Part shown: in pieces, positions 7,623 to 32,150 of the stretch
Layout of the letters: each line of letters starts with the position of its first letter
Numbering within the stretch: position 1 is the first letter of the stretch
Origin: Deltaproteobacteria bacterium
GTDB taxonomy: Bacteria > Desulfobacterota > GWC2-55-46
Direction: 5' to 3'
DNA length: 64,000 nucleotides
Assembly (NCBI GenBank): GCA_016177845.1
Contig: JACOUO010000008.1
Span: forward strand, 186,001-250,000
Position numbers and translations under genes: made by a program
Notes under the pieces: model-generated
The model's input: the letters and a program-made list of their open reading frames with translations, nothing else
Told to the model about the DNA's origin: nothing
The model's database searches: none

Positions 7623-7773
7623 GAAAGTCTTAAGACTCCACTGTTGTAAAACTGTTGTAGACAGGGAGGGAATAGCGGGAATAGGGAGACAACAATTAAC
7701 CCCTTGATTTTCAAGTCAAAACCGGAAAGTCAGACCGAAATCAAGGGGTATGGTTTTTTTGCTGTCTCCTACT
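7623..7773 (+). repeat. Conserved att-flanking block, copy 2
   Basis: A roughly 150-bp noncoding block that precedes the tRNA fragment here and, in diverged form, at copies 1, 3, 4 and 5. It contains tandem ACTGTTGTAAA/ACTGTTGTAGA at about 7639-7660 and a perfect 12-bp inverted repeat ACCCCTTGATTT (7699-7710) / AAATCAAGGGGT (7738-7749), followed by a T run. The second half therefore looks like an intrinsic terminator reading rightward. Confidence 0.75.
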
Positions 7774-7816
7774 GGCAGTCTTGAGGTCAGGGGTTCGATC
7801 CCCCTCTGCTCCACCA
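7772..7816 (+). repeat. tRNA-Ala 3' fragment, att-like copy 2
   Basis: 45 nt matching the tRNA-Ala gene from the anticodon loop (CTGGCAG) to the CCA end. A tRNA-type terminator follows (about 7823-7853, GGGTTACGC-GAAA-GCGTAACCC). The 5' half of the tRNA is missing, so this is not a functional tRNA. It separates segments B and C. Confidence 0.92.
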
Positions 7817-7881
7817 GGAAATTCAAACGGGTTACGCGAAAGCGTAACCCGTTTTCTTTTTGAAATACGATATTGGAAATG

Positions 7882-7916
7882 TTGGGGTTTCGCTACGCTA
7901 ACCCAACCTACAGTAC
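7882..7916. repeat. Short palindromic repeat and GTGG motif next to att copy 2
   Basis: The sequence GGGGTTTCGCTACGCTAACCCAACC has complementary GGGTT/AACCC ends. It is followed by TACAGTACTCTTAGTATCC and TTCGTGGTC just before the M23 gene end. The same unit stands before cassette 4 at 17901-17950, and part of it is inverted at 16377-16420. It behaves like a small interspersed repeat. Confidence 0.6.
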
Positions 7917-7934
7917 TCTTAGTATCCTTCGTGG

Positions 7935-8583
7935 TCAAATCCGAATTTTCATCTCAATAATATCGTTCCCATTGCCAAAACAACCTACATTCTTTCCGTC
8001 CACCATAATCTGCAAGCGGAATTCCTCATCCAGCTTAAAATCCATCCTATCAAGTATTTCTTCCAGATACTGCTCGCTTATAGGATGGTCACCGACGGTT
8101 TACCCGGTTCACATCTCCATTGTAGCCGGTACTTCCTTCGCTGTTCCAGTTCATTTTTCCGGATCCCTCGGTGTCTACAATCTCAAAATGAAGATGGAAC
8201 TGTGCGTGCTTATTTTTATAAAAGCTTTTCGTCCCTGTGTTGCCGGAAAAGCCTATCACCTGTCCTTTTACTACCATATCACCACAGCTCACGTTCACAC
8301 TGGAAAGATGCGCATAGAGCGTATAGATATGCCTCTCATTATCCAAGGCGAAGGGGGTATGGTCGATGATTACCGTAAATCCATAATTTCCATCTTTCGG
8401 CACAAACGATGCTCTTACGACCTCGCCTCGTTCGCTCGCACGGACTACCGTTCCTTCCGGTAAACCGTAATCTATCCCATAATGCGTCCTGCCGCCATCT
8501 CGAAGCGAACCGAATCCATCATTTCTTTTGATTTTCCCTTTTATATCTTCATTGACCGGTTCCTTAAAATCTAATTTTCCCAT
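7935..8583 (-). pseudogene. M23 (LytM-type) metallopeptidase, cassette 1, frameshifted
   Basis: The frame starting at 8583 (MGKLDFKEPV) has the peptidase motifs: HYGID, LYAHLSS and HLHFE. It runs off frame at VNRVNRR-stop (8089). The rest of the family's C-terminal domain (VGDHPISEQYLEEILDRMD...) continues to 7935 in another frame. Compared with the intact cassette-4 gene, about 43 nt are missing near 8100, which explains the frameshift. No signal peptide. It lies 11 nt after the propeller gene and is presumably cotranscribed with it. The peptidase domain itself is still complete, so a shortened active protein remains possible. Confidence 0.85.
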
Positions 8584-8594
8584 CTACTCCCTCC

Positions 8595-9761
8595 TTATCT
8601 GTTGATCTCCATAACATATAAGCCATAACCAAAGCCCTTATCAGGTTTTTTCAAATTCCGCCAATAAGCTATCCGTGTTCCGTCCGGCGAGATACCATAA
8701 AATCCTCCCATATCAGGCCCGCCTAATATACACTCAGTTTTTGCTTTGCTCTGCGAAAAACGGCGGATGCACTTATCGTCGCTTTCCTTGTAAATAATGT
8801 CCCCGTTTGGCAAAATAGCATCTCTGATGTGCGGAAATTTCAGGTCAAACTCCAATATTTCCCTGCAGTTCAGCCCGCTCTGTTTAATATCGCATATATA
8901 ATAATAATCTCTGCCTCTTCCCATCTTTCCTTCACTATAGGATTCCCATGTACCAAGAGAGATCGTTTTATCTTTTATTGCCATAGCGTTCCCAAGATGT
9001 CCTTTGATCTCAAGGTCTCGGCCCGGAATAAACTCTTTTGACCAGCCGTTCTCTCCGAAAATCTCCACCCCAAGGCTCACATTGCTACTCTCGTCAAATA
9101 TCATGGTTACTATGCCAGAGGAATCGGCGAGCCAGATCGGGTCAAGATGAGCCCATTCGCTCTTGAGCCAGCGCATTTCCCACTTCGGCTCCGGCATCTT
9201 AAACGGCGTGTTATGCCTGCCGCCGATAAAGGCCTTCTTCCCGTCCGGAGATATTACGTCCGCGAATTCAGGCCTGTCCCGCCTTATTGCAAACCTTTCC
9301 ACCTTGCCCGTGGCCACCTCATAGCGGTACAGGTCCACAACGTACCCCAGCCAATCGTTTCTACCCTCGAACTCCTCATCATCAGGCTCAACTCTTCCCT
9401 TGTCTATCCGCAAGCTCTTCCTGTCAACAAATATGACCCACTTTCCATCAGGCGTACAGTTCAATGGGTAATCTTTTGTGCCATCCACGCTTACTTTTGT
9501 CCACTTTCCGGTTGCCAGGTCCAATAAATACAAACCCCTTGTATAACCATAGATCAAAAGTCTGTCATTTCCGCACCACCTGATACTGGAAAAACCGAAG
9601 CCGATGTCGCGCGCAACGAGTCTCTCTTTTCGGGTGTTTGTACCCGAGTTTTCAGGGCTTTGATTTTCAAGCGCAGCACTATTTAAAACAGATGAAAAAA
9701 AGACGGATAGGCTTAAAAAAATAATCAGGGGGATCATCTTGTATCTGCAAAAACTCATCAT
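8595..9761 (-). CDS. Secreted beta-propeller-like (WD40/TolB-like) protein, cassette 1
   Basis: A 388-aa protein with an N-terminal signal peptide (about residues 1-30: KMIPLIIFLSLSVFF core, cleavage probably near NSAALE). The mature part shows spaced repeats of the SPDGK/TPDGKWV type (about residues 110, 170 and 365) and many short beta strands, as in PD40/WD40-like propellers. No catalytic motif is apparent. It is probably periplasmic. It is the upstream partner of a signal-less M23 peptidase and has close paralogs at 15161, 16664 and 18652. The family is not one I can name, and the function is unknown. Confidence 0.8.
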   Translation of the reverse strand: MMSFCRYKMIPLIIFLSLSVFFSSVLNSAALENQSPENSGTNTRKERLVARDIGFGFSSIRWCGNDRLLIYGYTRGLYLLDLATGKWTKVSVDGTKDYPLNCTPDGKWVIFVDRKSLRIDKGRVEPDDEEFEGRNDWLGYVVDLYRYEVATGKVERFAIRRDRPEFADVISPDGKKAFIGGRHNTPFKMPEPKWEMRWLKSEWAHLDPIWLADSSGIVTMIFDESSNVSLGVEIFGENGWSKEFIPGRDLEIKGHLGNAMAIKDKTISLGTWESYSEGKMGRGRDYYYICDIKQSGLNCREILEFDLKFPHIRDAILPNGDIIYKESDDKCIRRFSQSKAKTECILGGPDMGGFYGISPDGTRIAYWRNLKKPDKGFGYGLYVMEINR

Positions 9762-13664: not shown

Positions 13665-13994
13665 CTAATAGCCCTCATGGCAATTTAGCTGGCGTCGAGC
13701 CTCGACTTTTTGCAAGGCACCCTTGAAAAAAATCAACTCCACGGTCTTGTCAGGCAACACCCGTTTCAGTTTGCTTACCTCTTTGCGTAATTTGGACTCT
13801 CGCGAGCTCTCCGATGGCGGCCCATCTCCGCTATCGGTCGGTTCCATCTTTCTGCGCCATTCGTACAAAAGCCCTCGACTAACCCCCAGTTCCCTCGACA
13901 GCTCCAAGATATTATCGCATCGCTTCAGCCGTTCGACGGCCATCTGCCTAAATGCTTGGGGATGCCATCCCACTAGTTTTTTTACCACTTGCAC
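13665..13994 (-). mobile_element. IS3-family transposase OrfA, orphan
   Basis: A 109-aa OrfA-type protein: an N-terminal helix-turn-helix (HPQAFRQMAVERLK...LSRELGVSRGLLYEWRR, residues 11-48) followed by a leucine/lysine-rich segment (ESKLRKEVSKLKRVL...VELIFFKGALQ) like the dimerisation region of IS3-group OrfA. No OrfB (DDE integrase) follows, so the element is incomplete and cannot move alone. Its ends could not be defined. Confidence 0.85.
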
Positions 13995-14130: not shown

Positions 14131-14287
14131 GGCTCCACTGTTGCAAAACTGTTGCAGACAGAGAGGGAATCGAGGGAATTAAGGGAAACAGAGGGAATAG
14201 GAAGACAACAATTAACCCCTTGATTTTTAAGTCAAAACCGGAAAGTCAGACCAGAATCAAGGGGTTATGGTTTTTTGCTGTCTCCTA
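14131..14287 (+). repeat. Conserved att-flanking block, copy 4
   Basis: Homologous to the block before copy 2. It has tandem ACTGTTGCAAA/ACTGTTGCAGA at about 14137-14158 and a perfect 12-bp inverted repeat AACCCCTTGATT (14214-14225) / AATCAAGGGGTT (14255-14266), followed by TATGGTTTTTT. The loop (AAGTCAAAACCGGAAAGTC region) is almost identical to copy 2. Confidence 0.75.
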
Positions 14288-14332
14288 CTGGCAGTCTTGA
14301 GGTCAGGGGTTCGATCTCCCTCTGCTCCACCA
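14288..14332 (+). repeat. tRNA-Ala 3' fragment, att-like copy 4
   Basis: 45 nt matching the tRNA-Ala 3' half with one substitution in the T stem (GATCTCC for GATCCCC). The following hairpin (14341-14374) is identical to the terminator of the intact tRNA. It separates segments D and E. Confidence 0.92.
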
Positions 14333-14470
14333 GAAAATTCAAACGGGTTATGCGAAAGCATAACCCGTTTTTCTTTGGACTGTTCCCAATGTGGAATTCC
14401 ATACTTATTTTATTTATCCCGATGAGTTTGTCGCAAGCGCGGTTTGGCGGCCTCTTAATGGTCTTCGCGG

Positions 14471-15147
14471 TCAAATCCGGATTTTCATCTCAATGATATC
14501 GTTCCCATTGCCAAAACAACCTACATTCTTTCCGTCCACCATAATCTGCAAGCGGAATTCCTCATCCAGCTTAAAATCCATCCTATCAAGTATTTCTTCC
14601 AGATACTGCTCGCTTATAGGATGGTCACCGACGGTTTCAAAATAGCCGTCTGGGTCAACCCGATTCACATGTCCGTTATAACCCGTGCCCCCTTCACGGT
14701 TCCAGTTCATTTTACCGGATTCCTGAGTGTCTATCACCTCGAAATGGAGATGGCATCCACGGCCCGTATTAGTCTTTTTGCGAAATTGATTCCTATAAAA
14801 TTCTTTTGTTCCGGTATTGCCCGACCTGCCTATCGCCTGCTCCTGGCTGACTATATCGCCACAACTCACACTCAGCGAAGAAAGATGCGCGTAAAGCGTA
14901 TAGATATGCCTTTCATTATCCCCGGCCTCTGGGGTATGGTCGATGATAACTGTAAATCCATAATTCCCGTCTTTGGGCACAAACGATGTCTTACTACCTT
15001 GCCGCGTTCGCTCGCGCGGACTTCCGTGCCCTCCGATGAACCGTAATCGATCCCGTAATGCGTCCTGCCGTTTTTGCGATCCGAACCAAATTCATCAGTT
15101 CTTTTAATTTTTTGGTTGACCGGCTCCTTGAAATTCAATTTCCCCAT
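14471..15147 (-). pseudogene. M23 metallopeptidase, cassette 2, frameshifted
   Basis: The first part (15147 to about 14995, MGKLNFKEPV...HYGIDYG...RGKVVR) and the second (about 14990 to 14471, PKDGNYGF...HLHFEV...IEMKIRI) are in different frames. Alignment with cassette 4 shows one base missing near 14992. The C-terminal domain is complete. The truncated first frame lacks the HLHFE active-site segment, so no active peptidase is expected unless the shift is a sequencing error. It lies 13 nt downstream of its propeller partner. Confidence 0.85.
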
Positions 15148-15160
15148 CTACCCCTCCTTA

Positions 15161-16339
15161 TCAGTTGATCTCCATAATATATAAATCACGACTGGTGCCC
15201 TTATTAAATTTTTTCCAATACCGCTGGTAAACTATCCGAGTTCCGTCCGGCGAAAGACCGTAAAACCCTCCCATATCAGGCCCGTCTAATATACACTCGG
15301 TCGTTGCCCGGCTTTGCGAAAAACGGCGGATGCACTTATCATCGCTTTCCTTGTAAACAATATCACCGCCGGGCAGCGTGGCGTATCTGATATGCGTATG
15401 CCTCAGGTCGAACTGCAATATTTCCTTGCAATTCAGCCCGCTCTGCTTAATGTCGCAGGTGTAAAAATAATACCTGTCTCTTCCCATCTCTCTTCCCATC
15501 TTTACTTCGCTATAGGATTCCCCTGTACTAAGAGATATCGTTTTGTTTTTTATTGCCACGGCGTCCCCAAGCTGCCCTTTGATATCAAGGTCACGGCCCG
15601 GAATAAACTCTTTTGCCCAGCCGCTCTCGCCGAAGATCTCCACTCCGAGGCTCACATTGCTCCCCTCGTCTAATATCATGGTTACTATGCCCGAAGAATC
15701 GGCGAGCCAGATCGGGTCAAGATGTGTCCATTCGCTCTTGAGCCAGCGCATCTCCCACGCCGGCTCCGGCATCTTAAACGGCGTATTATGCGTGCCCCCG
15801 AGTAATGCCTTTTTCCCGTCAGGGGATATAACATCGGCGAATTCAGGCCTGTCCCGTCTTGTGGCAAATTTTTCTACTTTGCCAGTGGACACTTCATAGC
15901 GGTACAGGTCCACAACATACCCCAGCCAATCGTGGCTACCCTCGAAATCCTCATCATCAGGCTCAACTCGTCCCTTGTCTATCCGCCAGCTCTTCCTGTC
16001 CACATATATGACCCACTTCCCGTCAGGCGTACAGTTCAATGGATATTTTTTTGTGCCGTCCGTGCTCACTGGTGTCCACCTTCCAGTTGCCAGATCCAAT
16101 AAATTTAAACCCCTTGTATAACCATAAATCAAAAGCCTGTCATTTCCGCACCACCTGATACTGGAAAAACCGAAGCCGATGTCGCGCGCAACGAGTCTCT
16201 CTTTTTTGGTGTTTGTTATAACCAAATTTTCAGGGCTTTGATTCTCAAATGCGGAACTATTTAAAACCGATGAGAAAAAGACGGATAGGCTTAAAAAAAT
16301 AATCAGGGGGATCATCTTGTATCTGCAAGAACTCATCAT
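15161..16339 (-). CDS. Secreted beta-propeller-like protein, cassette 2
   Basis: A 392-aa paralog of the cassette-1 propeller, with the same signal peptide (KMIPLIIFLSLSVFF core) and the same blade-like SPDGK and TPDGKWV repeats. Its intact frame stands beside a broken M23 gene. The cysteine pattern (RWCGNDR, LNCTPDG, CDIKQSGLNC, CIRRFSQS, CILDG) is shared with the paralogs and may form disulfides in the periplasm. Confidence 0.8.
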   Translation of the reverse strand: MMSSCRYKMIPLIIFLSLSVFFSSVLNSSAFENQSPENLVITNTKKERLVARDIGFGFSSIRWCGNDRLLIYGYTRGLNLLDLATGRWTPVSTDGTKKYPLNCTPDGKWVIYVDRKSWRIDKGRVEPDDEDFEGSHDWLGYVVDLYRYEVSTGKVEKFATRRDRPEFADVISPDGKKALLGGTHNTPFKMPEPAWEMRWLKSEWTHLDPIWLADSSGIVTMILDEGSNVSLGVEIFGESGWAKEFIPGRDLDIKGQLGDAVAIKNKTISLSTGESYSEVKMGREMGRDRYYFYTCDIKQSGLNCKEILQFDLRHTHIRYATLPGGDIVYKESDDKCIRRFSQSRATTECILDGPDMGGFYGLSPDGTRIVYQRYWKKFNKGTSRDLYIMEIN

Positions 16340-16376
16340 CGCTTTGCCTCTTTGTTATATAGATATAGTGTTTATT

Positions 16377-16441
16377 TGACCACGAAGGATACTAAGAGTA
16401 CTGTAGGTTGGGTTTCGCATAACCCGTTTGAATTTTCTGGT
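16377..16441 (-). repeat. Inverted tRNA-flank fragment at the cassette 2/3 junction
   Basis: Read on the minus strand, this stretch is CACCAGAAAATTCAAACGGG (end of the tRNA plus the left arm of its terminator), then GAAA, then CCCAACCTACAGTACTCTTA and the TCCTTCGTGGTC motif. It is the flank seen at 7811-7939 in collapsed and inverted form. It joins the cassette-3 M23 gene at a shared CCAGA, so this looks like a recombination junction. Confidence 0.8.
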
Positions 16442-16650
16442 GTATGATCGATAATGACCGTATATCCATAATTCCCGTCTTTAGGCACAAACGATGCTCT
16501 TTCTACCTTACCTCTCTCGCTCGCGTGGACTTCCGTTCCTTCCGGCGAACCGTAATCGATCCCGTAATGCGTACTGCCATTTTGGCGATGCGCACCAAAC
16601 CAGTCTTTTCTTTCATTAGTAACAGGCTGCATAAACTTTAATTTTCCCAT
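16439..16650 (-). pseudogene. M23 metallopeptidase, cassette 3, 3'-truncated
   Basis: Starts at the ATG at 16650 (AAGGAGGGACGG before it) and encodes MGKLKFMQPV...THYGIDYG...FVPKDGNYGYTVIIDHTPE. It is then cut off and continues for 20 codons into inverted tRNA-flank DNA. The first zinc ligands (HYGID) remain, but the AHLSS and HLHFE parts and the whole C-terminal domain are gone, so it cannot be an active peptidase. Confidence 0.88.
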
Positions 16651-16663
16651 CCGTCCCTCCTTA

Positions 16664-17817
16664 TCAGTTGACATCCATAATATATAAACCATAACCGAAG
16701 CCCTTATCAGGTTTTTTCAAATTCCGCCAGTAAGCTATCCGGCTTCCGTCCGGTGAGAGGCCGTAAAATCTACCAATGTTAGGCCCGTCTAATATACACT
16801 CGGCCTTCGCCTTGCTCTGCGAAAAACGGCGGATGCACTTATCATCGCTTTCCTTGTAAATAATATCCCCGTTTGGCAACACAGCATCTCTGATGTCCGT
16901 ATATCTAAGGTCGAACTCCAATATCTCCTTGCAACTAAGCCCGCTCTGTTTAATGTCGCAGGCGTAAAAATAATACCTGTTTCTTCCCATCTTTTCTTCA
17001 CTATAAGATTTAACCGAACGCATTGAGATCGTTTTGTTTTTTATCGCCATGGCATCCCCAAGTTGTCCTTTGATGTCAAGGTTTCGTCCCGGAATAAACT
17101 CTTTCGACCAGCCATCCTCTCCGAAAATCTCCACCCCCAGGCTCACATTGCTCCTCTCGTCAAATATCATAGTTACTATGCCCGATGAATCGGCGAGCCA
17201 TATCGGGGCGACATGGGCCCATTCGCTTTTGAGCCAGCGCATCTCCCACCTCGGCTCCGGCATCTTAAACGGCGTGTTGTGCGTGCCCCCGAGAAAGGCT
17301 TTTTTCCCGTCAGGAGATATAACATCAACTGATTCAGGCCTGTCCCGTCTCGTGGCAAACTTCTGCGCTTTGCCTGTTGACACCTCATAGCGGTACAGGT
17401 CCTCAACGTAGCCCTGCCACATGGCTTCACCCTCCATTTCATCTTCATCAGGCTCAACTCGCCCCCTATCTATACGCGCGCTCTTCCTGTCAACGTATAA
17501 GACCCACTTTCCATCAGGCGAACAGTTCAAGGGGTAATCGGTCTCTTTCGTACTGACAACGGTCCATTGACCCTTCAAGTCCAGCAACCGGAGTCCTTTA
17601 TCGCCATAGACTAAAAACCTGTCCTTCCCGCACCATCTGATATCGGAAGAGCCGAAACCGATATCGCGCGCAACGAGCCTTTCTTTTTTGGTGTTTGTAC
17701 CCGAGTTTTCAGGGCTTTGATTTTCAAGAGCAGAACTATTTAAAACAGATGAGAAAAAGACGGATAGGCTAAAAAAATAATCAGGGGGATCATCTTGTAT
17801 CTGCAAGAACTCATCAT
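16664..17817 (-). pseudogene. Secreted beta-propeller-like protein, cassette 3, frameshifted in the signal peptide
   Basis: From about residue 20 onward this matches its paralogs for 360 residues. The native ATG at 17817 and the conserved MMSSCRYKMIPL start are present. One T is missing in the CTTAAAAAAA run near 17770, so the signal sequence is out of frame with the rest. The surviving frame could only start at an internal ATG (17806, MQIQDDPPDY), giving a poor export signal. The mature part is free of stops. Confidence 0.82.
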
Positions 17818-17848
17818 CGCTTTGCCTCTTTGTTATATAGATATAGGA

Positions 17849-17948
17849 ACCCGTTTTTCTTTTCCGAGCTTCAAGTAAACGGCTATTGAAAATGTAAGGG
17901 GTTTCGCTACGCTAACCCAACCAACAGTACTCTTAGTATCCTTCGTGG
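17849..17948 (+). repeat. tRNA terminator remnant and repeat at the cassette 3/4 junction
   Basis: AACCCGTTTTTCTTT (the right arm and T run of the tRNA-Ala terminator) follows directly after the cassette-3 upstream sequence TATATAGATATAGG. Then come the palindromic repeat GGGGTTTCGCTACGCTAACCC and the TCCTTCGTGGTCAAATCC motif, as at 7882-7945. No tRNA sequence itself is left here, so the junction is the scar of a lost attachment site. Confidence 0.75.
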
Positions 17949-18629
17949 TCAAATCCGGATTTTCATTTCAATGGTCTCGTTCCCATTGCCGAAACAACCT
18001 ACATTCTTTCCGTCCACCATAATCTGCAATCGGAATTCCTCATCCAGCTTAAGATCCATCCTGTCAAGTATTTCTTCCAGATACTGCTCGCTTATAGGAT
18101 GGTCACCGACGGTGCCGTTCACTTCGAGATCAGGATTGCCAAAATAGCCGTCCGGGTTTACTCGGTTCACATGCCCGTTGTAACCGGTGCCCCCTTCACT
18201 GTTCCAGTTCATTTTCCCGGATTCCCGGGTGTCTATCACCTCGAAATGGAGATGGAACTGGCGGCCGGTATTCCTGTAAAAACTTGCCGTGCCTGTGTTG
18301 CCGGACAATCCTATCGCCTGCTCCTGGCTGACCATATCGCCACAACTCACATTCAAGCTGGAAAGATGCGCATAGAGCGTATAGATATGCCTCTCATTAT
18401 CGCTGGCCTCAGGGGTATGGTCGATGATCACTGTATATCCATAATTCCCGTCTTTAGGCACAAACGACGCCCTTACGACCTTGCCGCGCTCACTCGCACG
18501 GATTTCCGTGCCCGCAGGTGAATCGTAATCGATCCCGTAATGAGTCCTGCCGTCCTTGCGGATCTCACCGAATCCATCATTTCTTTCTATATTTTTGTTT
18601 ACCGGTTCCTTGAAATATAATTTTCCCAT
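17949..18629 (-). CDS. M23 (LytM-type) metallopeptidase without signal peptide, cassette 4 (intact)
   Basis: A 226-aa protein, the only complete M23 copy in the array. M23 peptidases cut glycine-rich or other peptide cross-links in peptidoglycan using zinc. The expected residues are all present: H30 and D34 (HYGID) and H127 (second H of HLHFE) as zinc ligands, with H87 (YAHLS) and H125 as catalytic residues. A C-terminal domain of about 60 residues (VGDHPISEQYLEEILDR... to EMKIRI) has no match I recognise. There is no signal peptide or membrane segment. AAAAAGGAGACGG precedes the ATG. It lies 22 nt after the secreted propeller gene. Confidence 0.88.
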   Translation of the reverse strand: MGKLYFKEPVNKNIERNDGFGEIRKDGRTHYGIDYDSPAGTEIRASERGKVVRASFVPKDGNYGYTVIIDHTPEASDNERHIYTLYAHLSSLNVSCGDMVSQEQAIGLSGNTGTASFYRNTGRQFHLHFEVIDTRESGKMNWNSEGGTGYNGHVNRVNPDGYFGNPDLEVNGTVGDHPISEQYLEEILDRMDLKLDEEFRLQIMVDGKNVGCFGNGNETIEMKIRI

Positions 18630-18651
18630 CCGTCTCCTTTTTATTGCTACC

Positions 18652-19818
18652 TTACTGGTTGATCTCCATTATATATAAATCGTAACTGGTGCCCTTGTTC
18701 TCTTTTTTTTCATAGCGCTCGTACACTATCCGGCTTCCGTCCGGCGACAGCCCGTAAAATCTACCCATATTAGGCCCGCCTGATATACACTCGGCCTTTG
18801 CCCGGCTTTGCGAAAAACGGCGGATGCACTTATCGTCGCTTTCCTTATAGACTATATCCCCGTCAGGCAATACAGCATATCTGATGTCCGTATATCTCAG
18901 GTCGAACTCTAATATTTCCTTGCAATTCAGCCCGCTCCGTTTAATATCGCAGGCATAAAAAAAATACCTGTTTCTTCCCATCTCTCTTCCCATCTTTACT
19001 TCGCTATAGGATTCGACCGTAAGCAAAGAGATCGTTTTATTTTTAATGGCGATGGCGTCCCCAAGCCGCCCTTTGATGTCAAAGTCGCGGCCCGGAATAA
19101 AGTCCCTGGACCAGCCGTTCTCACCGAAAATCTCCACCCCCAGGCTCATATTTTTCTTCTCGTCGGATACCATAGTAACTATGCCCGATGAATCGGCAAA
19201 CCATACCGGGTCGAAATGGACCCATTCGTTCTTTAGCCAGCGCATTCCCCACTTCGGCTCCCGCATCTTAAACGGCGTATTATGCCTGCCTCCGATAAAG
19301 GCCTTTACCCCGTCCGGAGATACTATATCCAACAAATTGGGCCTGTCACGCACAATGGCAAATACCTGCCTTTTGCCTGTAGCTACTTCGTAACGGACTA
19401 AATCTTCCACAAAACCCTGCCACTCGCTTTCACCCTCGATCTCATCATCAGGAGGAGCGACTCGTCCCCTGTCTATCCGCCAGCTTTTCCTGTCAACATA
19501 TATGACCCATTCTCCGTCAGGCGAACAGTTCAAAGGGTAATCGGTTTGCTTCGTACTTACAAAAGTCCATTGCCCTTTCAAGTCAAGCAACCTCAGCCCT
19601 TTATCTCCATAGATCAGAAGCCTGTCATTGCCGCACCACCTGACGCTGGCAACCTCGAAGCCGATGTCGCGCGCAACGAGTCTTTCTTTTTTGGCTGTTA
19701 CATTCGAATTTGGGCTTTGATTTTCAAGCGCAGCACTATTTAAAACAGATGAGAAAAAGACGGATAGGCTTAAAAAAATAATCAGGGGGATCATCTTGTA
19801 TCTGCAAGAACTCATCAT
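18652..19818 (-). CDS. Secreted beta-propeller-like protein, cassette 4 (intact)
   Basis: A 388-aa paralog of the proteins at 8595, 15161 and 16664, with an intact signal peptide (KMIPLIIFLSLSVFF core, about 30 residues) and propeller-like SPDG repeats. It diverges more from the other three in the middle (QGFVEDLVRYEVATGKRQ). It is the upstream gene of the only complete cassette. No enzymatic motif is seen; a binding or inhibitory role toward a partner protein is possible. Confidence 0.8.
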   Translation of the reverse strand: MMSSCRYKMIPLIIFLSLSVFFSSVLNSAALENQSPNSNVTAKKERLVARDIGFEVASVRWCGNDRLLIYGDKGLRLLDLKGQWTFVSTKQTDYPLNCSPDGEWVIYVDRKSWRIDRGRVAPPDDEIEGESEWQGFVEDLVRYEVATGKRQVFAIVRDRPNLLDIVSPDGVKAFIGGRHNTPFKMREPKWGMRWLKNEWVHFDPVWFADSSGIVTMVSDEKKNMSLGVEIFGENGWSRDFIPGRDFDIKGRLGDAIAIKNKTISLLTVESYSEVKMGREMGRNRYFFYACDIKRSGLNCKEILEFDLRYTDIRYAVLPDGDIVYKESDDKCIRRFSQSRAKAECISGGPNMGRFYGLSPDGSRIVYERYEKKENKGTSYDLYIMEINQ

Positions 19819-20080
19819 CGCTTTGCCTCTTTGTTATATAGTATAGTGTTTATTTTCTATACTTGATCTTCTATCTAATTATTTCTATTACTGAATTCAG
19901 CAAATTTTATTCTACCTTTAAATATATTCATTCACATTCGGGTTTAAATTCAATCCCAAGCATCTTAACTCAATCTTTAACTTAATCGCAATAAATTTGC
20001 AATAAAAAGCCTACTATGGTGTGTTCGGCTGACCTGCCCTTTAAGGGCCCGACCGGGAATATATTATTGATAAGTACCAA
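19819..20080. promoter_or_regulatory. Upstream region of cassette 4
   Basis: A+T-rich, homologous to 9820-10060 upstream of cassette 1, including the GCTTTGCCTCTTTGTTATATAG leader shared by cassettes 2-4 immediately before the propeller ATG. The promoter must lie here; no single -35/-10 pair stands out. No gene is seen. Confidence 0.55.
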
Positions 20081-24149: not shown

Positions 24150-25472
24150 TTAGCAGGGTATTTCTGCGCCCTTCCTGTTGTAATACCACCAGTTAAGGAG
24201 TGTACCGATTACGCAGAATACGATGAGACCGACAAAGAATGGCTTCGGTGAGCCTGTCTTTGACATTGCCGTACCGATAAGTAAAGCAAAGATAAACGGG
24301 CCGTACGCCGCTACAGCGCCCGTAAAGCCAAGAACGCCTGCCGCCTGTCTCGGATTGAATATAATCGGTATCTGACGGAATGTTGAAGCGTTACCGATAC
24401 CTGAGAAGAAGAACAGGCAAAGCATCATATAAACGAAAAAGTTGAATGACTCAAGTGAAGTCGGGGCAAGCGCAGGCATCACGAGTACTGAGAACACAAT
24501 GATACCGATACCGCATATCGTGGTAATGATAGCGCCGCCTGTTTTATCTGAGATAAACCCGAAGATTACGCGTGATGCGGCTCCGATAAGCGGACCGTAG
24601 AACGCGTATTTAAGCGGGTCCGGTGCGCCGGGGAATCCGCCATAAACAGCCTTGATCATAAGCGGGAATGACGCTGCAAGACCTGAGAATGAACCGAATG
24701 TCATGATATAGAGGATTGTCATGAACCAGGTATGCTTGTTGCCGAATATATCAAGCTGTTCCTTGAATGAAGCTTTGATAGGAACGCTCTTAAGCCAAAT
24801 GAATGAAGCAATACCGAAAATGATAAGAAGCGGTACATACCAGACAAGACCGTTCTGGAGCCAGATATCCTTTACTACTTCGCCCTTTGTGAAAACCTGG
24901 GGTCCGCCTACCGCTGAACCGAATGCTGCGAAACCAATGATCCAGGGTGTTACGAACTGTGTCAAGCTGACGCCGAAGTTACCTACACCTGCCTGGATAC
25001 CAAGAGCGGCACCCTGGAGGCGTTTGGGGAAGAACATACTTGTTGACGGCATGAATGAGGAGAAGTCGCCGCCGCCAAAGCCTGCGAGGAACGCGAGAAA
25101 CATGAATACCCAATACGGCGTACTGAGATCCTGTACGGCATACGCAAGGCCGATACAAGGAACGATCTTTAAGAAGTTAGCTACTGCCACTACCATCCTC
25201 GTGCCGAATATCGGGATAAGGAAGGTGTGGATAAGACGGAAAGTACCTCCGGCAAGACCCGGCATTGAGGCCAGCCAGAAGAGCTGCATTGTGTCGAATT
25301 TAAAACCTATCTGAGGCAGGCGCACAACAACCGCGCTTATGACGAACCATGTTGCGAATGAAAGAATGAGGCTGATTGTGGTGATTATTAATGTAGTCCA
25401 GGCAATCTTACTGCCGGTTTGCTGCCAAAATTGTGGGTCTTCAGGCTCCCACCTTTGTAACCAAGAAGACAT
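24150..25472 (-). CDS. narK: Nitrate/nitrite transporter NarK (MFS), nar-operon copy
   Basis: 440 aa, about 12 membrane segments. The NarK/NasA signature GFGGGDFSSFMPSTSMFFP near residue 137 and a second glycine-rich motif near residue 370 (FFFSGIGNASTFRQIP) match nitrate/nitrite porters, which exchange or import nitrate and export nitrite. It lies downstream of narI beyond a terminator, so it may be transcribed by read-through or from its own promoter in 25473-25607. Confidence 0.92.
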   Translation of the reverse strand: MSSWLQRWEPEDPQFWQQTGSKIAWTTLIITTISLILSFATWFVISAVVVRLPQIGFKFDTMQLFWLASMPGLAGGTFRLIHTFLIPIFGTRMVVAVANFLKIVPCIGLAYAVQDLSTPYWVFMFLAFLAGFGGGDFSSFMPSTSMFFPKRLQGAALGIQAGVGNFGVSLTQFVTPWIIGFAAFGSAVGGPQVFTKGEVVKDIWLQNGLVWYVPLLIIFGIASFIWLKSVPIKASFKEQLDIFGNKHTWFMTILYIMTFGSFSGLAASFPLMIKAVYGGFPGAPDPLKYAFYGPLIGAASRVIFGFISDKTGGAIITTICGIGIIVFSVLVMPALAPTSLESFNFFVYMMLCLFFFSGIGNASTFRQIPIIFNPRQAAGVLGFTGAVAAYGPFIFALLIGTAMSKTGSPKPFFVGLIVFCVIGTLLNWWYYNRKGAEIPC

Positions 25473-25611
25473 TGGAGACTCCTTTCATCAACAATCAAAT
25501 TTTACCGCATGAACGATCGTGCGAAGCTTATATCTGGCAAGAGAGTGATTTAATATTGCCTACTGCTTTAACCTGGAGATGCTGTGGAGCCTTATTGCCT
25601 CCGTCTAAAAA

Positions 25612-25638
25612 AAGGGGTGGGCTAAAAGCCCACCCCTT
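25612..25638 (-). terminator. Terminator of the narGHJI operon
   Basis: Perfect 12-bp stem AAGGGGTGGGCT / AGCCCACCCCTT with an AAA loop. On the minus strand it is followed by a U run (A run at 25607-25613). It lies 8 nt past the narI stop codon. Confidence 0.92.
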
Positions 25639-25645
25639 CCCGTTA

Positions 25646-26344
25646 TTACTTGTACTGAACGATATTTACTGTCGGGCCGCCTCTCCTGTACCACCTTACG
25701 ACCTGATAAGGCCTTACGAGGTACTTGTAGGGGTTGAGGACCACGAAGTGTGCAAGCCTTGAGAACGGAATAAGGCCGATGAATATTAAAGCATTGAAGA
25801 TGTGTGTCTTTGTGATCAAGGGCAGATTCGCCACATAATCAACATTGGGGTTGAGCTTAAGAATTGACCACATCCAGGGTACTGCTGTGGCTGCATACCA
25901 GTTTGAACCCCACCTGTAGAGAACGGCGTTGCCAAGACCTGTTACAACCTGAATCAAGAGGACGATAAGTACAAGTACGTCCCATGAGCTTGTTAAGGCT
26001 TTTACCCTGCTGTTTGTAAGTCTTCTGTAGATAAGGGCAAGAAGACCGAACAGCGCGAGGAAACCGCAGGCAAGAGCTGTTAACTCAAGAACATAGAGCC
26101 TTACGGGAACAGCGTTCCAAAGGAGTATGCTCTTGGGGATGAAAAGACCGAGAATGTGCCCGAGGAGAACGGTGATTATACCGTAGTGCCAAGGGAATGA
26201 CCCGAAGAAGAGGGTCTTATTCTCGACGAACTGTGATGACTGACTTGACCATGTGTACTTGTTGGACCTGAATCTCCAGATGGCGCCAACAATCGCGGTC
26301 ATCAGAAATATGTATGGCATTCCGCCAAACAGGAACTTATCCAT
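25646..26344 (-). CDS. narI: Respiratory nitrate reductase gamma subunit NarI
   Basis: 232 aa with five membrane segments. It is the diheme cytochrome b that oxidises quinol and passes electrons to NarH. The four axial histidines can be placed at H53 (WHYGI), H63 (LGHIL), H181 (KTHIF) and H199 (LAHFV). It directly follows narJ. Confidence 0.95.
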   Translation of the reverse strand: MDKFLFGGMPYIFLMTAIVGAIWRFRSNKYTWSSQSSQFVENKTLFFGSFPWHYGIITVLLGHILGLFIPKSILLWNAVPVRLYVLELTALACGFLALFGLLALIYRRLTNSRVKALTSSWDVLVLIVLLIQVVTGLGNAVLYRWGSNWYAATAVPWMWSILKLNPNVDYVANLPLITKTHIFNALIFIGLIPFSRLAHFVVLNPYKYLVRPYQVVRWYRRGGPTVNIVQYK

Positions 26345-26902
26345 TTATTTGACCTCCTTTACATCTTTGTCTAAGATTCTATAGATGGCACTTATGAGGT
26401 GGCTATAGACATTCTTTTTATTTTTTTCGAAGTTTTTGTTCAGCTTCTCCATTGCCTTTATCAGGAAGCTTTCCCTGAAATTCTTCTTCAGAGCCTCGTC
26501 CTTCACGGTGCCAAGGAATTGAAGGAGGATCGGGAGGTAATCAGGAAGCTCGCCTTTTGACACCTGGTCAAAAGGGAAACCCTGATCATTATACATTGCC
26601 TTGATGGATGCCAGGCTATTCGCACGCTTAAAACCTTCATACAGGTGATAACCCATATCGAGCGTGAAGTCTGATGCGAGCTCGAAGGTGTAGGAGAACA
26701 CCCCTTGAAGATCATCAAGGGGCATTATCTCCAGATCCTTCTGAAACTTCTCAAGCTCATGAACGACTTCGTGAGGATACTGCGGATAGTTGGCCAGCGC
26801 TTTTACGCACTCATCGGCCTTTATCTTAATATCCTCCTGCGGATATTCCAGTAAACCTGCCAAATGCAAGTATAGGTTTTTCTCCGTACCAGCCGTTGTC
26901 AA
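26345..26902 (-). CDS. narJ: Nitrate reductase chaperone NarJ
   Basis: A 185-aa acidic all-helical protein of the NarJ/TorD-like family, needed for molybdenum cofactor insertion into NarG and its membrane attachment. The DLQGVFSYTFEL and LPDYLPILLQFLG-type stretches are characteristic. Its start immediately follows the narH stop codon and its stop is adjacent to narI. Confidence 0.92.
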   Translation of the reverse strand: MTTAGTEKNLYLHLAGLLEYPQEDIKIKADECVKALANYPQYPHEVVHELEKFQKDLEIMPLDDLQGVFSYTFELASDFTLDMGYHLYEGFKRANSLASIKAMYNDQGFPFDQVSKGELPDYLPILLQFLGTVKDEALKKNFRESFLIKAMEKLNKNFEKNKKNVYSHLISAIYRILDKDVKEVK

Positions 26903-28423
26903 TTACCAAGTCCTCCCGAGGAATTCCTTCTTCTTCACACCAAAGCCTACCGAACCCCTCTTCTCGTACATTGTCCTGGGGTCGACATTTGTCTGTATCT
27001 CGCGGTGTGTTTCCGGTATTACGAACCTCTCCTGGAAAGTTGAGAGGGAAACCAGCCTGTAGATATCGTCAGCATCCTGTGTTGTAAGGCCTACTGATGA
27101 AAGGGCTGCCTTCGCCTGGCTTTCGGAGATGTCGCCCATCCTGAGATGGCGCCTGTAGAGCCTGACGGCCATCTGCTTCTTAAGGGACTCGAGCACTGCC
27201 TGCTCGTTGCCTGCGCTTAAGAGGTTGGCGAGATACCTGAGCGGAATCCTCATCTTGCCTATCTCGTTGAAGAACTCTACTGACTCAGGGTCAAATGTTC
27301 CGCCATTCTCCGACTTCGCATTGTGAAGTATCGGTGAAAGAGGCGGGAGGTAGAAGTTCATCGGGAGCGTCCTGAATTCAGGATGGTTCGGCAGAGCTAT
27401 ACGCCACTTCTTAAAGAGATTGTAAGAAGGTGATTCCTGTGCCGCCCTGATCCAGTTCTCATCGATACCTGCTTTCCTTGCTTCTTCGATGACGCGCGGG
27501 TCATTGGGGTCGAGGATGATTTCCCTCATTGCCTCAACAATCCTGTCTTCGGGAGCCTTTGCGACTTCCTCGATCCTGTCGGCATCATAGAAGAGAGCGC
27601 CTACGAACCTGATCCTGCCTGTGCAAGCGTGTGCGCAAGCGTTCGGCTGGCCGGTCTCGACCCTCGGATAGCAGAATATACACTTTTCTGACTTACCATT
27701 GGCCCAGTTGTAGTAAGGCTTCTTGAACGGGCAAGCGCTTACGCAGAATCTCCAGGCGCGGCATGTGTCCTGATCGATAAGGACGATACCGTCCTCACCC
27801 CTCTTGTAGATAGCGCCTGACGGGCAGGAAGCTACGCAAGCCGGGTTGAGGCAGTGGTTACAAATCCTCGGCAGATAGAAGAAGAAGAGCTTGTGGAACT
27901 TTGTAAGCATATCCTTCTGTGAATCTGAGAGGCCCTTAAGGTTCGGGTCATTTGACGCATAGAGCGGGGAACCGCCCATGTCGTCGTCCCAGTTGGGTCC
28001 AAGGACGATCTTTTCCATGAACTCGCCTGTTATCAGTGACTTCGGCCTTGCTACCGGCTGGTCATCTCCGGCAGGAGCGTTGAAGAGGTTCTGATAATCA
28101 TAGGTGAACGGCTCATAGTAATCGTCAATGGTCGGGAGGTTCGGCTGAAAGAAGATGTTCGCCAAGGTCCTGATCTTGCCGGGGCCTTTGAGGAGCTTCA
28201 GCCTGAGGCTGCCGCCGGATACTTCCCAGCCGCCCCTGTACCTTTCCTGATCTTCCCAAGTAAGCGGATAACCAGCGCCGGGTTTTGTCTCGACGTTGTT
28301 CCACCACATGTACTCGGCGCCCCTGCGGGTTGTCCATACGTTCTTACAGGACACGCTGCAGGTATGGCAGCCGATACACTTATCTAAATGAAAACTCATT
28401 GAGAGTTGAGCTCTGATATCCAT
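26903..28423 (-). CDS. narH: Respiratory nitrate reductase beta subunit NarH
   Basis: 506 aa iron-sulfur electron-transfer subunit. Cluster ligands: C16-C19-C22-C26 (CIGCHTCSVSC); CNHCLNPACVASC near residue 185; CRAWRFCVSAC near 218, where tryptophan replaces a cysteine as in NarH proteins with one [3Fe-4S] cluster; and CIFC...CAHAC near 245-265. It has NarH-like length and lacks a Tat signal. One nucleotide separates it from narG. Confidence 0.96.
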   Translation of the reverse strand: MDIRAQLSMSFHLDKCIGCHTCSVSCKNVWTTRRGAEYMWWNNVETKPGAGYPLTWEDQERYRGGWEVSGGSLRLKLLKGPGKIRTLANIFFQPNLPTIDDYYEPFTYDYQNLFNAPAGDDQPVARPKSLITGEFMEKIVLGPNWDDDMGGSPLYASNDPNLKGLSDSQKDMLTKFHKLFFFYLPRICNHCLNPACVASCPSGAIYKRGEDGIVLIDQDTCRAWRFCVSACPFKKPYYNWANGKSEKCIFCYPRVETGQPNACAHACTGRIRFVGALFYDADRIEEVAKAPEDRIVEAMREIILDPNDPRVIEEARKAGIDENWIRAAQESPSYNLFKKWRIALPNHPEFRTLPMNFYLPPLSPILHNAKSENGGTFDPESVEFFNEIGKMRIPLRYLANLLSAGNEQAVLESLKKQMAVRLYRRHLRMGDISESQAKAALSSVGLTTQDADDIYRLVSLSTFQERFVIPETHREIQTNVDPRTMYEKRGSVGFGVKKKEFLGRTW

Positions 28424-28424
28424 A

Positions 28425-31400
28425 TTACCACTTCACCTCCTGGTTTCTCGTTTTCCTTACCAACACGGTTGTATCCCTGATGATCGGGATCGGACCCCAG
28501 GCGTTGAAGCCGTATGAGAACTGGCCGTAGCCGCCGATCATGAGTGTTGGTTTAAGACGCTGCCTGGTGAGAGAGTTATGGAATCCGCTCCTGATCTTGT
28601 TCCTCTGTTCGACCTTCGGAACGTTTACTGTCCTTTCCATTGAATGGTAGGCGAAGCATGTTCCGGAGGGGATCCTTGCGCTGACAACCGCACGGCAAGC
28701 GAATACGCCGTTATCGTTGTAAGCCTCTACCCAATCATTATCTTTGATGCCTACGCTCTCTGCATCCCTGTCATTAACCCATATTGAGTTACCGCCACGG
28801 GACAATGTCAACATCCTCAGGTTATCGTAGTGCATTGAATGGATCTGCCACTTACCGTGAGGTGTGATGTAGTTAAGGTGCAGCGCGTCTGTCTTGTCTG
28901 ACTTCTGGACCTCGTTCATCTTGGCCGGGTTGAGCTTGTACTTGTTGGTACAGAGGCCTTCGCCGAACTGGAGATAAATCGGGTGGTCAAGGTAGAAGTG
29001 CTGCCTTCCGGTCAGTGTCCTCCAGGGTACTCTGTGCTCTGTCTGGATTGTCCATGTACCGTAAGCTCTTCCGAACCTGTTATCACCTGTCCAGAGTGCG
29101 CTTGCGAGCCATCTCTTCGGCTGTGCTACGATCTCGTCGTAGGTCATGCTTACTGACCTGTTCGGACCGGCAATTTCATCAGCTACGCCGTGAGCATTCT
29201 CAACATAGTATTTTACTTCATCGCCATAGATCTCTTTGACGCTCTTCTTGGCATCATCGTAAATCTTGCCATGGAGACCTGTATGGTGTTCTTCTTCGAG
29301 CCACTGCCTGTAGGAAACTTCGCCGTTTGTGGCGCCTGACATGGCAAGAACGAAGTTTGCGGCATCCCTTGCGCGTTCGAGGTGGATCCTCTTCTCGCCG
29401 TTTACAACCTTGCTCGGGATATGCGGCTGGTTTACATAGTCCTCATAGAGGCCTTTACCATCGATCATAATACCGTGGAAGCCGTATTTGCCCTTCTGGT
29501 TAGGTCCTACTGTGGTGTACATCTCGAGCATTCTTGTGTAATCTCTCTCGATGACAGAGATATTCGGCATTGTCTTGCCGGGTATTGCCTCGCACTCACC
29601 CTTCTTCCAGTCCTGTACGCCATTGATGGCTGGCTGGGCAATTTCACCCGGTGTATCGTGGGCAAGAGGTGATGTTACGACTTCTTTTATAGGCTTCGGA
29701 AGATGCTTCTTGGCAAGTTCTGAGAACTTTGCGGAGAAGAATTTGAATACTTCCCAGTCTTCCCTTGCTTCCCAGTTCGGTGATACTGCGGCGCCCATCG
29801 GATGTACGAATGAGTGAAGCTCTGTGGTGTTGATGTCTTCCTTCTCGTACCAGTGAGCTGCCGGCAGAACGATGTCTGAGTAGGTCGGGGTTGTGTTCAT
29901 ACGAATGTTAAGGTCGACGATGAGGTCGAGCTTACCAAGCGGGGACTCCCTGTACTTTACTTCCTTGAGGTACGGTTTGGCAACTTCGTCAGCAAGGACG
30001 TTGTTGTGTGTACCGAGGAGGAATTTGAAGAAGTATTCCTGACCCCTTGCGCTTGAACCAAGAGCATTTGCGCGCCAGATTGTCCATACTCTCGGCCAGT
30101 TCTCCGGAGCGTCAGGATCGGCTAAGGCGAAGTCAAGTGAACCGCTCTTAAGCTGTTTGACGACATGGTCAACAACTTCTGCGTCATTCTTCGCGCCTGC
30201 CCTCTGGGCTTCTTCAACGATTGTGAAGTTGTTCTTGTTGAACTGGGGATAGCCCGGGAGCCAACCCATTCTGATCGCCTTGATGTTGTAGTCAGCTGTG
30301 TGCTGGTACTCAAGGGCGTTCTTATCAGGAACATTATGGTAGTCTGTGATGGCTGAGTCAAACTTGAACTGCTGTGTATGGAGGAACCAGAAGCTTGGTG
30401 TGTTCTGGAACCTTGCAGGCTTGTACCAGTCGATTGAATGGGAAATCTGGCCCCATGAATCGAAGCAGGCAAGTTTTTCCTGACCGACGTAGTGCTGGAG
30501 ACCGCCGCCATTCCTACCTACGCAACCGCAGAGCATAAGAGCGTTCATCGCGGCTCTGTAGATGAGGTTAGCATGGTACCAGTGGTTGACTGAAGCTCCG
30601 CAGATTACCATTGAGCGGCCCTTTGTCACTTCCGCGTTTGAGGCGAACTCTCTGGCTACCTGAATGATTGTGTCACGACCGATGCCTGTGTACTTCTCCT
30701 GCCATGCGGGTGAGAAGCCTTTGTCATCATCGTAGTTCCTGCAGTAATCGCCTGAGAGACCTTTACGGACTACGCCGACATTACCGATATTGATATCAAA
30801 TACTGTTGTTACGGGAACCCTGCCTTCTTTTGTCTCTACATATTTGACAGGTACCTGCCTCTTGTACTTCTCAGGCTTGTCAAGTTCATAGAATACGACT
30901 TCAAGAGCATCGTCCTTAATGTCAAGGAGTGAAAGGGCTGCTGTGATGTCCTCGCCATTTTCTCCGTCCTTAAGGAGTGTGTTCCACTTGCCGTGGTTCT
31001 CGTGCTTCTGGGGATACCTGTAGCCCATACCGCCGTTTACTATCCTCGGCCTGTTGGTCTTTTCATCCCACATCGCGAATTTCCACTCCGAGTTATCGGT
31101 GTTGGCATAGTTCGCGAGGTCGCAGGCCTTTAAGAGACGGCCCATTTCATAACCGTCCTTGCCCTTTGTAAGCTTTACAAGGTGCGGAAGGTCTGTGAAG
31201 TTCCTTACATAAGCTTCGAAGTACGGGACTTTCCTGTCAACGAAGAATTCTTTAAGGATAACATGGTTTACTGCCATCCAGAACGCTGTGTCTGAACTGG
31301 GTTTAAGCGGTACCCAGAGGTCAGCGTACTTGGTGACCTGTGAAAAGTCAGGTGCGCAGACGACGAGCTTTGTTCCGCCGTGCCTCATTTCTGAGACGAA

Positions 31401-32150
31401 GTGGCAGTCCGCGGTCCTTGTCATGTTCGGGTTCGCACCCATCATGACAACATAACCGGCGTTGTACCAGTCGGCGCTTTCGCATGAGTCTGTCTGTTCG
31501 CCCCATACTTCCGGTTCAGCGGGCGGAAGGTCTGTATAGTAGTCATAGAAGCTCAGCGCGATACCGCCGAGGAGCTGATGGTAACGGGCGCCTGAAGCGT
31601 AGCTGATCTGTGACATGGCCGGGATCGGTGAGAAAGCGATGATCCTGTCCGGTCCATACTTTTTGATTGTGTACATCTGGGCCGCTGTGTAGATTTCTGC
31701 GGCTGTTTCCCAGTCAAACCTGCGGAATCCGCCTTTACCTCTTGACCACTTGATCTTCTTGGAGAGCTCAGGGTTCTCAACGATGCTTCTCCATGCGTCA
31801 ACCGGGTCTGAGTGCTTTGACTTGGCTTCTTTCCAGGCATCCTGAAGTATGCCGCGGATGTAAGGATATTTGATCCTGACAGGGCTGTAAACGTACCATG
31901 AAGCTGAAATACCCCTCTGGCATCCCCTCGGTTCGTACGGGGGCAGAGACTGTTCGAGCTTCGGATAGTCAACTGCCTGAAGTTCCCATGTGATGATACC
32001 GTCTTTTACGTATACCATCCATGAGCAACCGCCTGTGCAGTTGTTACCGTGGGTACTTCTTACTGTTTTGTCATACTGCCAGCGATTTCTATAAAATTCT
32101 TCCCAACCCCTTTTTCCAGGGTTTATTTCATCTTGTATCCAAGTAGACAT
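28425..32150 (-). CDS. narG: Respiratory nitrate reductase alpha subunit NarG
   Basis: A 1241-aa molybdopterin (Mo-bisMGD) catalytic subunit. The FS0 cluster ligands H34, C38, C42 and C77 have the NarG-type HxxxC spacing. D221 in WGEQTD corresponds to the molybdenum-coordinating aspartate. The N-terminus has no twin-arginine motif, so the enzyme faces the cytoplasm as in classical Nar. Together with narH, narJ and heme-b narI this indicates quinol-dependent nitrate reduction rather than periplasmic nitrite oxidation. GGAGG precedes the ATG. Confidence 0.97.
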   Translation of the reverse strand: MSTWIQDEINPGKRGWEEFYRNRWQYDKTVRSTHGNNCTGGCSWMVYVKDGIITWELQAVDYPKLEQSLPPYEPRGCQRGISASWYVYSPVRIKYPYIRGILQDAWKEAKSKHSDPVDAWRSIVENPELSKKIKWSRGKGGFRRFDWETAAEIYTAAQMYTIKKYGPDRIIAFSPIPAMSQISYASGARYHQLLGGIALSFYDYYTDLPPAEPEVWGEQTDSCESADWYNAGYVVMMGANPNMTRTADCHFVSEMRHGGTKLVVCAPDFSQVTKYADLWVPLKPSSDTAFWMAVNHVILKEFFVDRKVPYFEAYVRNFTDLPHLVKLTKGKDGYEMGRLLKACDLANYANTDNSEWKFAMWDEKTNRPRIVNGGMGYRYPQKHENHGKWNTLLKDGENGEDITAALSLLDIKDDALEVVFYELDKPEKYKRQVPVKYVETKEGRVPVTTVFDINIGNVGVVRKGLSGDYCRNYDDDKGFSPAWQEKYTGIGRDTIIQVAREFASNAEVTKGRSMVICGASVNHWYHANLIYRAAMNALMLCGCVGRNGGGLQHYVGQEKLACFDSWGQISHSIDWYKPARFQNTPSFWFLHTQQFKFDSAITDYHNVPDKNALEYQHTADYNIKAIRMGWLPGYPQFNKNNFTIVEEAQRAGAKNDAEVVDHVVKQLKSGSLDFALADPDAPENWPRVWTIWRANALGSSARGQEYFFKFLLGTHNNVLADEVAKPYLKEVKYRESPLGKLDLIVDLNIRMNTTPTYSDIVLPAAHWYEKEDINTTELHSFVHPMGAAVSPNWEAREDWEVFKFFSAKFSELAKKHLPKPIKEVVTSPLAHDTPGEIAQPAINGVQDWKKGECEAIPGKTMPNISVIERDYTRMLEMYTTVGPNQKGKYGFHGIMIDGKGLYEDYVNQPHIPSKVVNGEKRIHLERARDAANFVLAMSGATNGEVSYRQWLEEEHHTGLHGKIYDDAKKSVKEIYGDEVKYYVENAHGVADEIAGPNRSVSMTYDEIVAQPKRWLASALWTGDNRFGRAYGTWTIQTEHRVPWRTLTGRQHFYLDHPIYLQFGEGLCTNKYKLNPAKMNEVQKSDKTDALHLNYITPHGKWQIHSMHYDNLRMLTLSRGGNSIWVNDRDAESVGIKDNDWVEAYNDNGVFACRAVVSARIPSGTCFAYHSMERTVNVPKVEQRNKIRSGFHNSLTRQRLKPTLMIGGYGQFSYGFNAWGPIPIIRDTTVLVRKTRNQEVKW

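Follow-up and report, generated by a model that had tools for sequence, protein, structure and literature searches.

The intact cassette

The stretch of DNA analysed here (the window: 64,000 nucleotides (nt) of contig JACOUO010000008.1, assembly GCA_016177845.1, from a member of the Desulfobacterota) carries four copies, A to D, of a two-gene cassette which specifies a secreted protein of the beta-propeller type and an M23 peptidase. All lie on the minus strand and D alone is intact (Table 1), the M23 gene being broken in 3/4 copies (A, B and C) and the propeller genes of A and B being still open. In copy D the propeller gene stands upstream and the M23 gene follows after a gap of 22 nt which contains the sequence AAGGAG. 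A preliminary description of this DNA had singled out positions 17949–19818 as an intact cassette composed of a signal-bearing propeller and a signal-less M23 peptidase; the pair is real, its coordinates and spacing are exact, and both signal assignments are correct.

The copy D peptidase matches Pfam family PF01551 (E 1.2e-22; 80.3 bits, cut-off 28.7). It retains the HxxxD and HxH motifs, and, as had been claimed, all of its catalytic residues: H30, D34, H88, H126 and H128, which we take to be the metal-binding and catalytic residues of a LytM-type enzyme, are invariant in 16/16 aligned relatives. Its AlphaFold model superimposes on the LytM domains of DipM, ShyA and EnvC with Z values of ~18 and a root mean square deviation (rmsd) of 1.8–2.7 over 126–133 residues. 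It shares the LytM fold with these proteins and, in the case of the active enzymes, the active site, but they are exported housekeeping proteins whereas the copy D enzyme is signal-less. Its true N-terminus holds no signal: since an in-frame stop codon is found just upstream of the ATG, and the first 45 residues contain no hydrophobic stretch (maximum 12-residue hydropathy -0.41, versus 2.62 for the propeller), a hidden signal peptide can be discounted. No Pfam uptake domain was detected, the M23 domain and a C-terminal module filling all 226 amino acids (aa), and the tail itself has no Pfam match.

The partner protein scores marginally against PD40 (22.2 bits, cut-off 20.9). AlphaFold gave models of fair to good quality for both proteins, and the propeller model (predicted local distance difference test, pLDDT, 80.3; predicted TM score, pTM, 0.75) matches TolB (Foldseek E 3.1e-8), with DPPIV/S9-peptidase and other beta-propellers also aligning (VIA-align Z 17–20, rmsd ~3.5–4.7 over ~270–290 residues for the S9-peptidase and other propellers). 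The earlier term propeller-like is borne out by this model, in which the partner is predicted to have a WD40-like beta-propeller fold.

The cassette has the arrangement expected of a peptidoglycan toxin with periplasmic immunity, namely an enzyme devoid of a signal whose gene adjoins that of an exported protein. We consider it probable (roughly two chances in three) that the cassette is a two-gene toxin-immunity pair, comprising an M23 endopeptidase and an exported propeller inhibitor, and tagged with the terminal module.

The terminal module

The tail of the M23 protein is a module of ~50 residues, conserved in the majority, though not in every one, of the relatives whose M23 is intact. With a profile built from M23 tails alone (A3), two proteins with a Tlde1 domain proved to carry the module N-terminally (E 2.3e-12 and 5.8e-10 per genome); their Tlde1 (L,D-transpeptidase) domains score 48.2 and 52.4 bits (cut-off 30.1). 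When extended with these two carriers, the profile also located the module at the N-terminus of a protein whose colicin M domain scores 36.8 bits (cut-off 27). The latter contains DPYDFRPSTHR, fitting the published colicin M motif DxYD(x5)HR (PMC8469651). In an alignment of the two Tlde1 proteins and the colicin-M protein, all three of which are signal-less, the first ~58 residues are closely similar and the remainders are unrelated. The module is thus C-terminal on M23 and N-terminal on the other proteins, and the sharing of one noncatalytic module by unrelated toxin domains (M23, Tlde1 and Colicin_M) is what marks a polymorphic effector class.

The module was found in 10/63 genomes of its class, and a sample of 395 genomes from across the phylum showed it in no other class, a SAR324 metagenome-assembled genome (MAG) coming from a separate collection. 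It belongs to no Pfam family and has, by sequence, no relative of solved structure; AlphaFold models it as a small domain consisting of a helix and three strands. Viral contigs yielded nothing with the propeller or the colicin-M protein as query, and with the Tlde1 protein a single contig matching the catalytic part only. Most phage matches to M23 concern the peptidase portion of endolysins and tape-measure proteins, and plasmid matches span ≤73% of its length. The module is a mobile and previously undescribed one, common to several peptidoglycan-targeting putative toxins of this lineage.

Each of the three non-M23 carriers is followed immediately downstream by a gene for an exported or membrane partner. 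Behind one Tlde1 gene a 126-aa secreted protein begins after ~22 nt; since homologues of it immediately follow genes for Tlde1-domain proteins on plasmids of Burkholderia aenigmatica, B. glumae and Paraburkholderia, it is probably the cognate immunity gene of that Tlde1 type. Behind the other is a membrane protein, and the colicin-M gene overlaps by 8 nt with a gene for an N-terminally anchored protein. Immunity proteins of the colicin-M type are periplasmic, anchored or membrane proteins (PMC8469651).

The preliminary description had suggested that the C-terminal ~60 residues might be a delivery tag. This idea gains support from the fact that the module occurs at either terminus and moves from one catalytic domain to another, unrelated one, but it could also be a wall-binding domain. 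The module would then bind peptidoglycan or the envelope and concentrate enzymes at their substrate rather than sort them, which is compatible with a toxin-immunity pair, and we give this a substantial chance, if somewhat short of even. Every carrier acts on peptidoglycan or its precursor, such enzymes are often fused to wall-binding domains, and the modelled domain is a small one; yet the module has been seen on signal-less proteins only, at the extreme start of the Tlde1 and colicin-M proteins and at the end of M23, and it matches neither Pfam wall-binding domains nor, by sequence, any solved structure.

Related pairs

M23 relatives were found by an alignment-based scan of genome contigs, a single-sequence M23 scan of which gave none. 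The pair occurs in the same gene order in its own genome, its family, its order and one SAR324 MAG. Two further pairs are located on contigs C18 and C24 of the same genome, together with a broken pair on C23 which has a different exported partner. Relatives which pair M23 with a propeller are G016, G017, SAR324 L037, L040, L043, L044, G427, G425 and G148; in G013 the partner is a 237-aa exported protein, with a TPR lipoprotein-like gene in between, and in G004 and G027 it is an exported TPR protein. Within the 30 family genomes all propeller loci (10/10) adjoin an M23 gene or remnant in the same order, and the pair is patchily distributed (6/30 genomes). None of the 20 toxins examined has a hydrophobic N-terminus (maximum 12-residue Kyte-Doolittle (KD) value ≤1.06), and 19/21 partners possess one (KD ≥2.0). 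The homologous pairs are linked, and the identities among the propellers rise and fall with those among the M23 proteins (Mantel r 0.84; 0/5000 permutations).

Between the window copies the ratio of nonsynonymous to synonymous substitution (dN/dS) is ~0.2–0.3 for the propellers and 0.16–0.40 for the M23s, indicating purifying selection; on these values the copies were working genes throughout most of their past, and the loss of the M23 genes seems to be recent. Taken with the recurrence of the linked order in unrelated contexts, the low dN/dS argues that the M23-propeller pairing exceeds chance. Positive selection on the propeller was considered and ruled out, omega being ~0.2–0.3 overall.

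A second kind of pair is seen at L027 9237–11021 and L031 2669–4564, where an exported protein of 340–370 aa (FKVRLPDGLYLY) lies beside a signal-less M23 of another type, with GYFISP at its end; both copies of this M23 appear to have damaged frames. A tandem array of approximately four exported paralogues which share their N-terminus (MKTTGKLIIFVFAFL...) is found at L027 1636–5811, upstream of the C24 pair. At L157 6941–7717 a single frame combines the N-terminal piece of an M23-like protein with an exported partner of the 237-aa type, probably a recombination scar.

Delivery and the relationship to prophages

The preliminary description had suggested that a secretion apparatus of the VgrG/Hcp/PAAR kind delivers the enzyme, for which we find no support. 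VipA of the type VI secretion system (T6SS) and VirB4 of the type IV secretion system (T4SS) were each found in 0/30 family genomes, its own included, and the contractile sheath family PF04984 is absent from its own genome. GPW_gp25 (PF04965), a baseplate family common to T6SS, extracellular contractile injection systems and contractile phages, was found in 0/10 module-bearing genomes and is likewise absent from its own genome, which is rated 100% complete; some other MAGs in these searches are incomplete. The module could be an address tag for an antibacterial delivery route which has yet to be described, is neither contractile nor of the VirB4-type T4SS kind, and serves several unrelated peptidoglycan-targeting toxins, a suggestion we put forward only tentatively and regard as rather doubtful.

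In three related cases the pair is located at or close to prophage genes: that of L040 immediately follows a phage endolysin and holin, that of L043 comes after genes for terminase, portal, head and tail proteins, and that of L042 is near amidase, holin and tail-like genes. Release by lysis or through a holin is for this reason a real alternative. The C18 pair (L025 3532–10226) is near a phage-type integrase at a contig end, which suggests an integrated element. The whole cassette might accordingly be prophage cargo or an accessory lysis cassette, in which an endolysin-like M23 reaches the wall via a holin or at lysis, the propeller acts as a periplasmic brake (for lysogen protection or timing), and the freed enzyme may hit neighbouring cells. 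Endolysins are typically signal-less wall hydrolases, and non-lytic export through holins is known (PMC9527704). We nevertheless think it unlikely: no phage genes, endolysin and holin included, were recognized around the window copies, L040 already has an endolysin and holin of its own, and the module is also carried by Tlde1 and colicin-M domains, neither of them a usual kind of endolysin.

A second phage-related explanation is superinfection exclusion, with the propeller blocking in the periplasm a wall-cutting M23 of an incoming phage, much as T4 Spackle inhibits the tail lysozyme from the periplasm (PMC7677548). Phage tape-measure proteins do contain M23 domains, and some pairs are in prophages. 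The M23 protein is, however, small and free-standing and does not belong to a tail gene, it is kept together with the propeller outside recognizable prophages, and the sharing of the module with Tlde1 and colicin-M proteins is left unexplained; we consider this explanation far-fetched.

Proposed interpretation: a toxin-immunity pair

In the mechanism which we propose, the downstream gene would produce a cytoplasmic M23 endopeptidase aimed at the periplasmic peptidoglycan of other cells, and the upstream gene a Sec-exported beta-propeller which would bind and neutralize the M23 protein in the periplasm of the producer. The likeliest role of the module is to sort or deliver the toxins or to hold them at the wall, and the cassette would belong to a wider set in this lineage (M23, Tlde1 and colicin M), every member of which has an exported or membrane-anchored partner to itself. 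The topology of an effector-immunity pair, the part of the original proposal which stands, is supported by signal-less M23 proteins beside nearly always exported partners and by the occurrence of the module on Tlde1 and colicin-M proteins which have such partners; toxicity, inhibition by the propeller and delivery are what we infer from it.

Several observations weigh against this interpretation. Four M23 relatives (L031, L040, L041 and L044) lack the module in any frame, and it is thus not essential for the pair. The G016 propeller, as assembled, has no signal peptide. The C18 and C24 M23 proteins are 73% identical and their propellers 40%, which makes them the one outlier in the co-variation and an imperfect fit to strict cognate pairing, and the co-divergence may reflect merely the joint inheritance of linked genes. 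The partners differ among relatives (propeller, 237-aa protein or TPR protein). Lastly, the markers for T6SS, contractile systems and VirB4 revealed no delivery apparatus, type I, VII and IX secretion systems and holin routes not having been searched.

An enzyme for remodelling the cell's own wall, exported by some unknown route and with the propeller as its periplasmic cofactor or chaperone, would account for the M23 domain, since enzymes of this kind commonly remodel the wall of their own cell and need periplasmic regulators. The patchy presence of the pair, the repeated decay of its copies, the mobile genes nearby and a module common to toxin domains all speak against such a role, which we judge to be most unlikely.

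The decayed copies and their surroundings

The four copies (A, 8089–9761; B, 14471–16339; C, 16372–17806; D, 17949–19818) are ~85–100% identical to one another at their ends and ~63–92% in the middle. Near-identical stretches of ~100–260 nt (~93–100%) flank them at 17700–17960, 14200–14470, 7700–7930 and 19700–19860; these are likely recombination targets for shuffling of the cassette. That three of the four M23 genes are broken while propellers A and B remain open is to be expected if loss of the toxin is tolerated. In Xanthomonas citri the immunity protein guards mainly against entry of the producer's own signal-less hydrolase into the periplasm (PMC10933484), and by analogy the keeping of lone propellers could be explained by self-protection of this type, or by protection from the toxins of neighbours.

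A transposase-type helix-turn-helix protein (HTH_Tnp_1) is encoded at 13665–13994, between copies A and B. Beside the array, at 24150–32792, are genes resembling a nitrate reductase/transporter operon, as judged by eye (1241-aa large subunit, major facilitator superfamily transporter).

Table 1. Positions of the cassette genes and their parts in the window
Feature	Position	Strand	Remarks
Copy D M23 peptidase, intact, signal-less, putative toxin	17949..18629	-	226 aa; Pfam; AlphaFold pLDDT 83.3
Copy D M23 catalytic domain	18228..18545	-	residues 29-134, with H30, D34, H88, H126, H128
Copy D C-terminal module	17952..18092	-	~residues 180-226; 58.6 bits; homologous to N-terminal module of Tlde1-/colicin-M-domain proteins in related genomes
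Copy D beta-propeller, secreted, putative periplasmic immunity protein	18652..19818	-	388 aa
Copy D propeller Sec signal peptide	19729..19818	-	hydrophobic core IPLIIFLSLSVFFSSVL
Copy A propeller, open	8595..9761	-	388 aa; signal peptide; 74% identical to copy D
Copy A M23, domain kept	8089..8583	-	164 aa; frameshift cuts off module
Copy A detached C-terminal module	7938..8099	-	different frame; 58.8 bits
Copy B propeller, open	15161..16339	-	392 aa; signal peptide
Copy B M23 gene, frameshifted	14471..15147	-	two reading frames
Copy C propeller	16664..17806	-	frameshift within signal peptide region
Copy C M23 gene, truncated	16372..16650	-	~first 77 residues of homology

Comparison with known systems

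The closest parallels are with pairs in which a propeller-like protein restrains a peptidoglycan hydrolase. In Tse1/Tsi1 of Pseudomonas aeruginosa a peptidoglycan-cleaving enzyme is likewise combined with a periplasmic propeller-like inhibitor, Tsi1 being a partial propeller (PMC3391265); Tse1, however, is an NlpC/P60 amidase, and delivery there is by a T6SS, which was not found here. Tsi1 is not among the propeller matches listed in our structure comparison, and a likeness to it is conceivable. The X. citri effector X-Tfe XAC2609 and its inhibitor X-Tfi XAC2610 offer a signal-less peptidoglycan hydrolase, a conserved terminal module (XVIPCD) and a lipoprotein inhibitor with a propeller fold, and XAC2610 and PliI-Ah are both propeller-type inhibitors of such hydrolases (PMC10933484). 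The XVIPCD binds VirD4 of the Xanthomonas T4SS, whereas here VirB4 was not found and the module, of ~50 residues, may be N- or C-terminal.

As with WHIX, MIX, RIX and PIX, one module is fused to different toxin domains, and carriers of WHIX mostly target the periplasm and include M23 (PMC12135965). Those are T6SS secretion domains, whereas T6SS markers were not found here, and the comparison is one of descriptions, not of sequences.

The same catalytic domains as in Tlde1a/Tldi1 and colicin M/Cmi are fused to the module in relatives of the cassette. These systems differ from ours: the known Tlde1 is a T6SS effector, and colicin M, which comes into the cell from outside, possesses domains for receptor binding and translocation.

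Effector classes linked to a machine already known are defined by shared modules, among them MIX, WHIX and XVIPCD. Here one module accompanies M23, Tlde1 and colicin-M domains in genomes in which neither a contractile system nor VirB4 was found; it provides a handle on competition among uncultured bacteria, and the toxin-immunity pairs named here are testable. The propeller may extend the short list of beta-propeller periplasmic inhibitors of peptidoglycan hydrolases.
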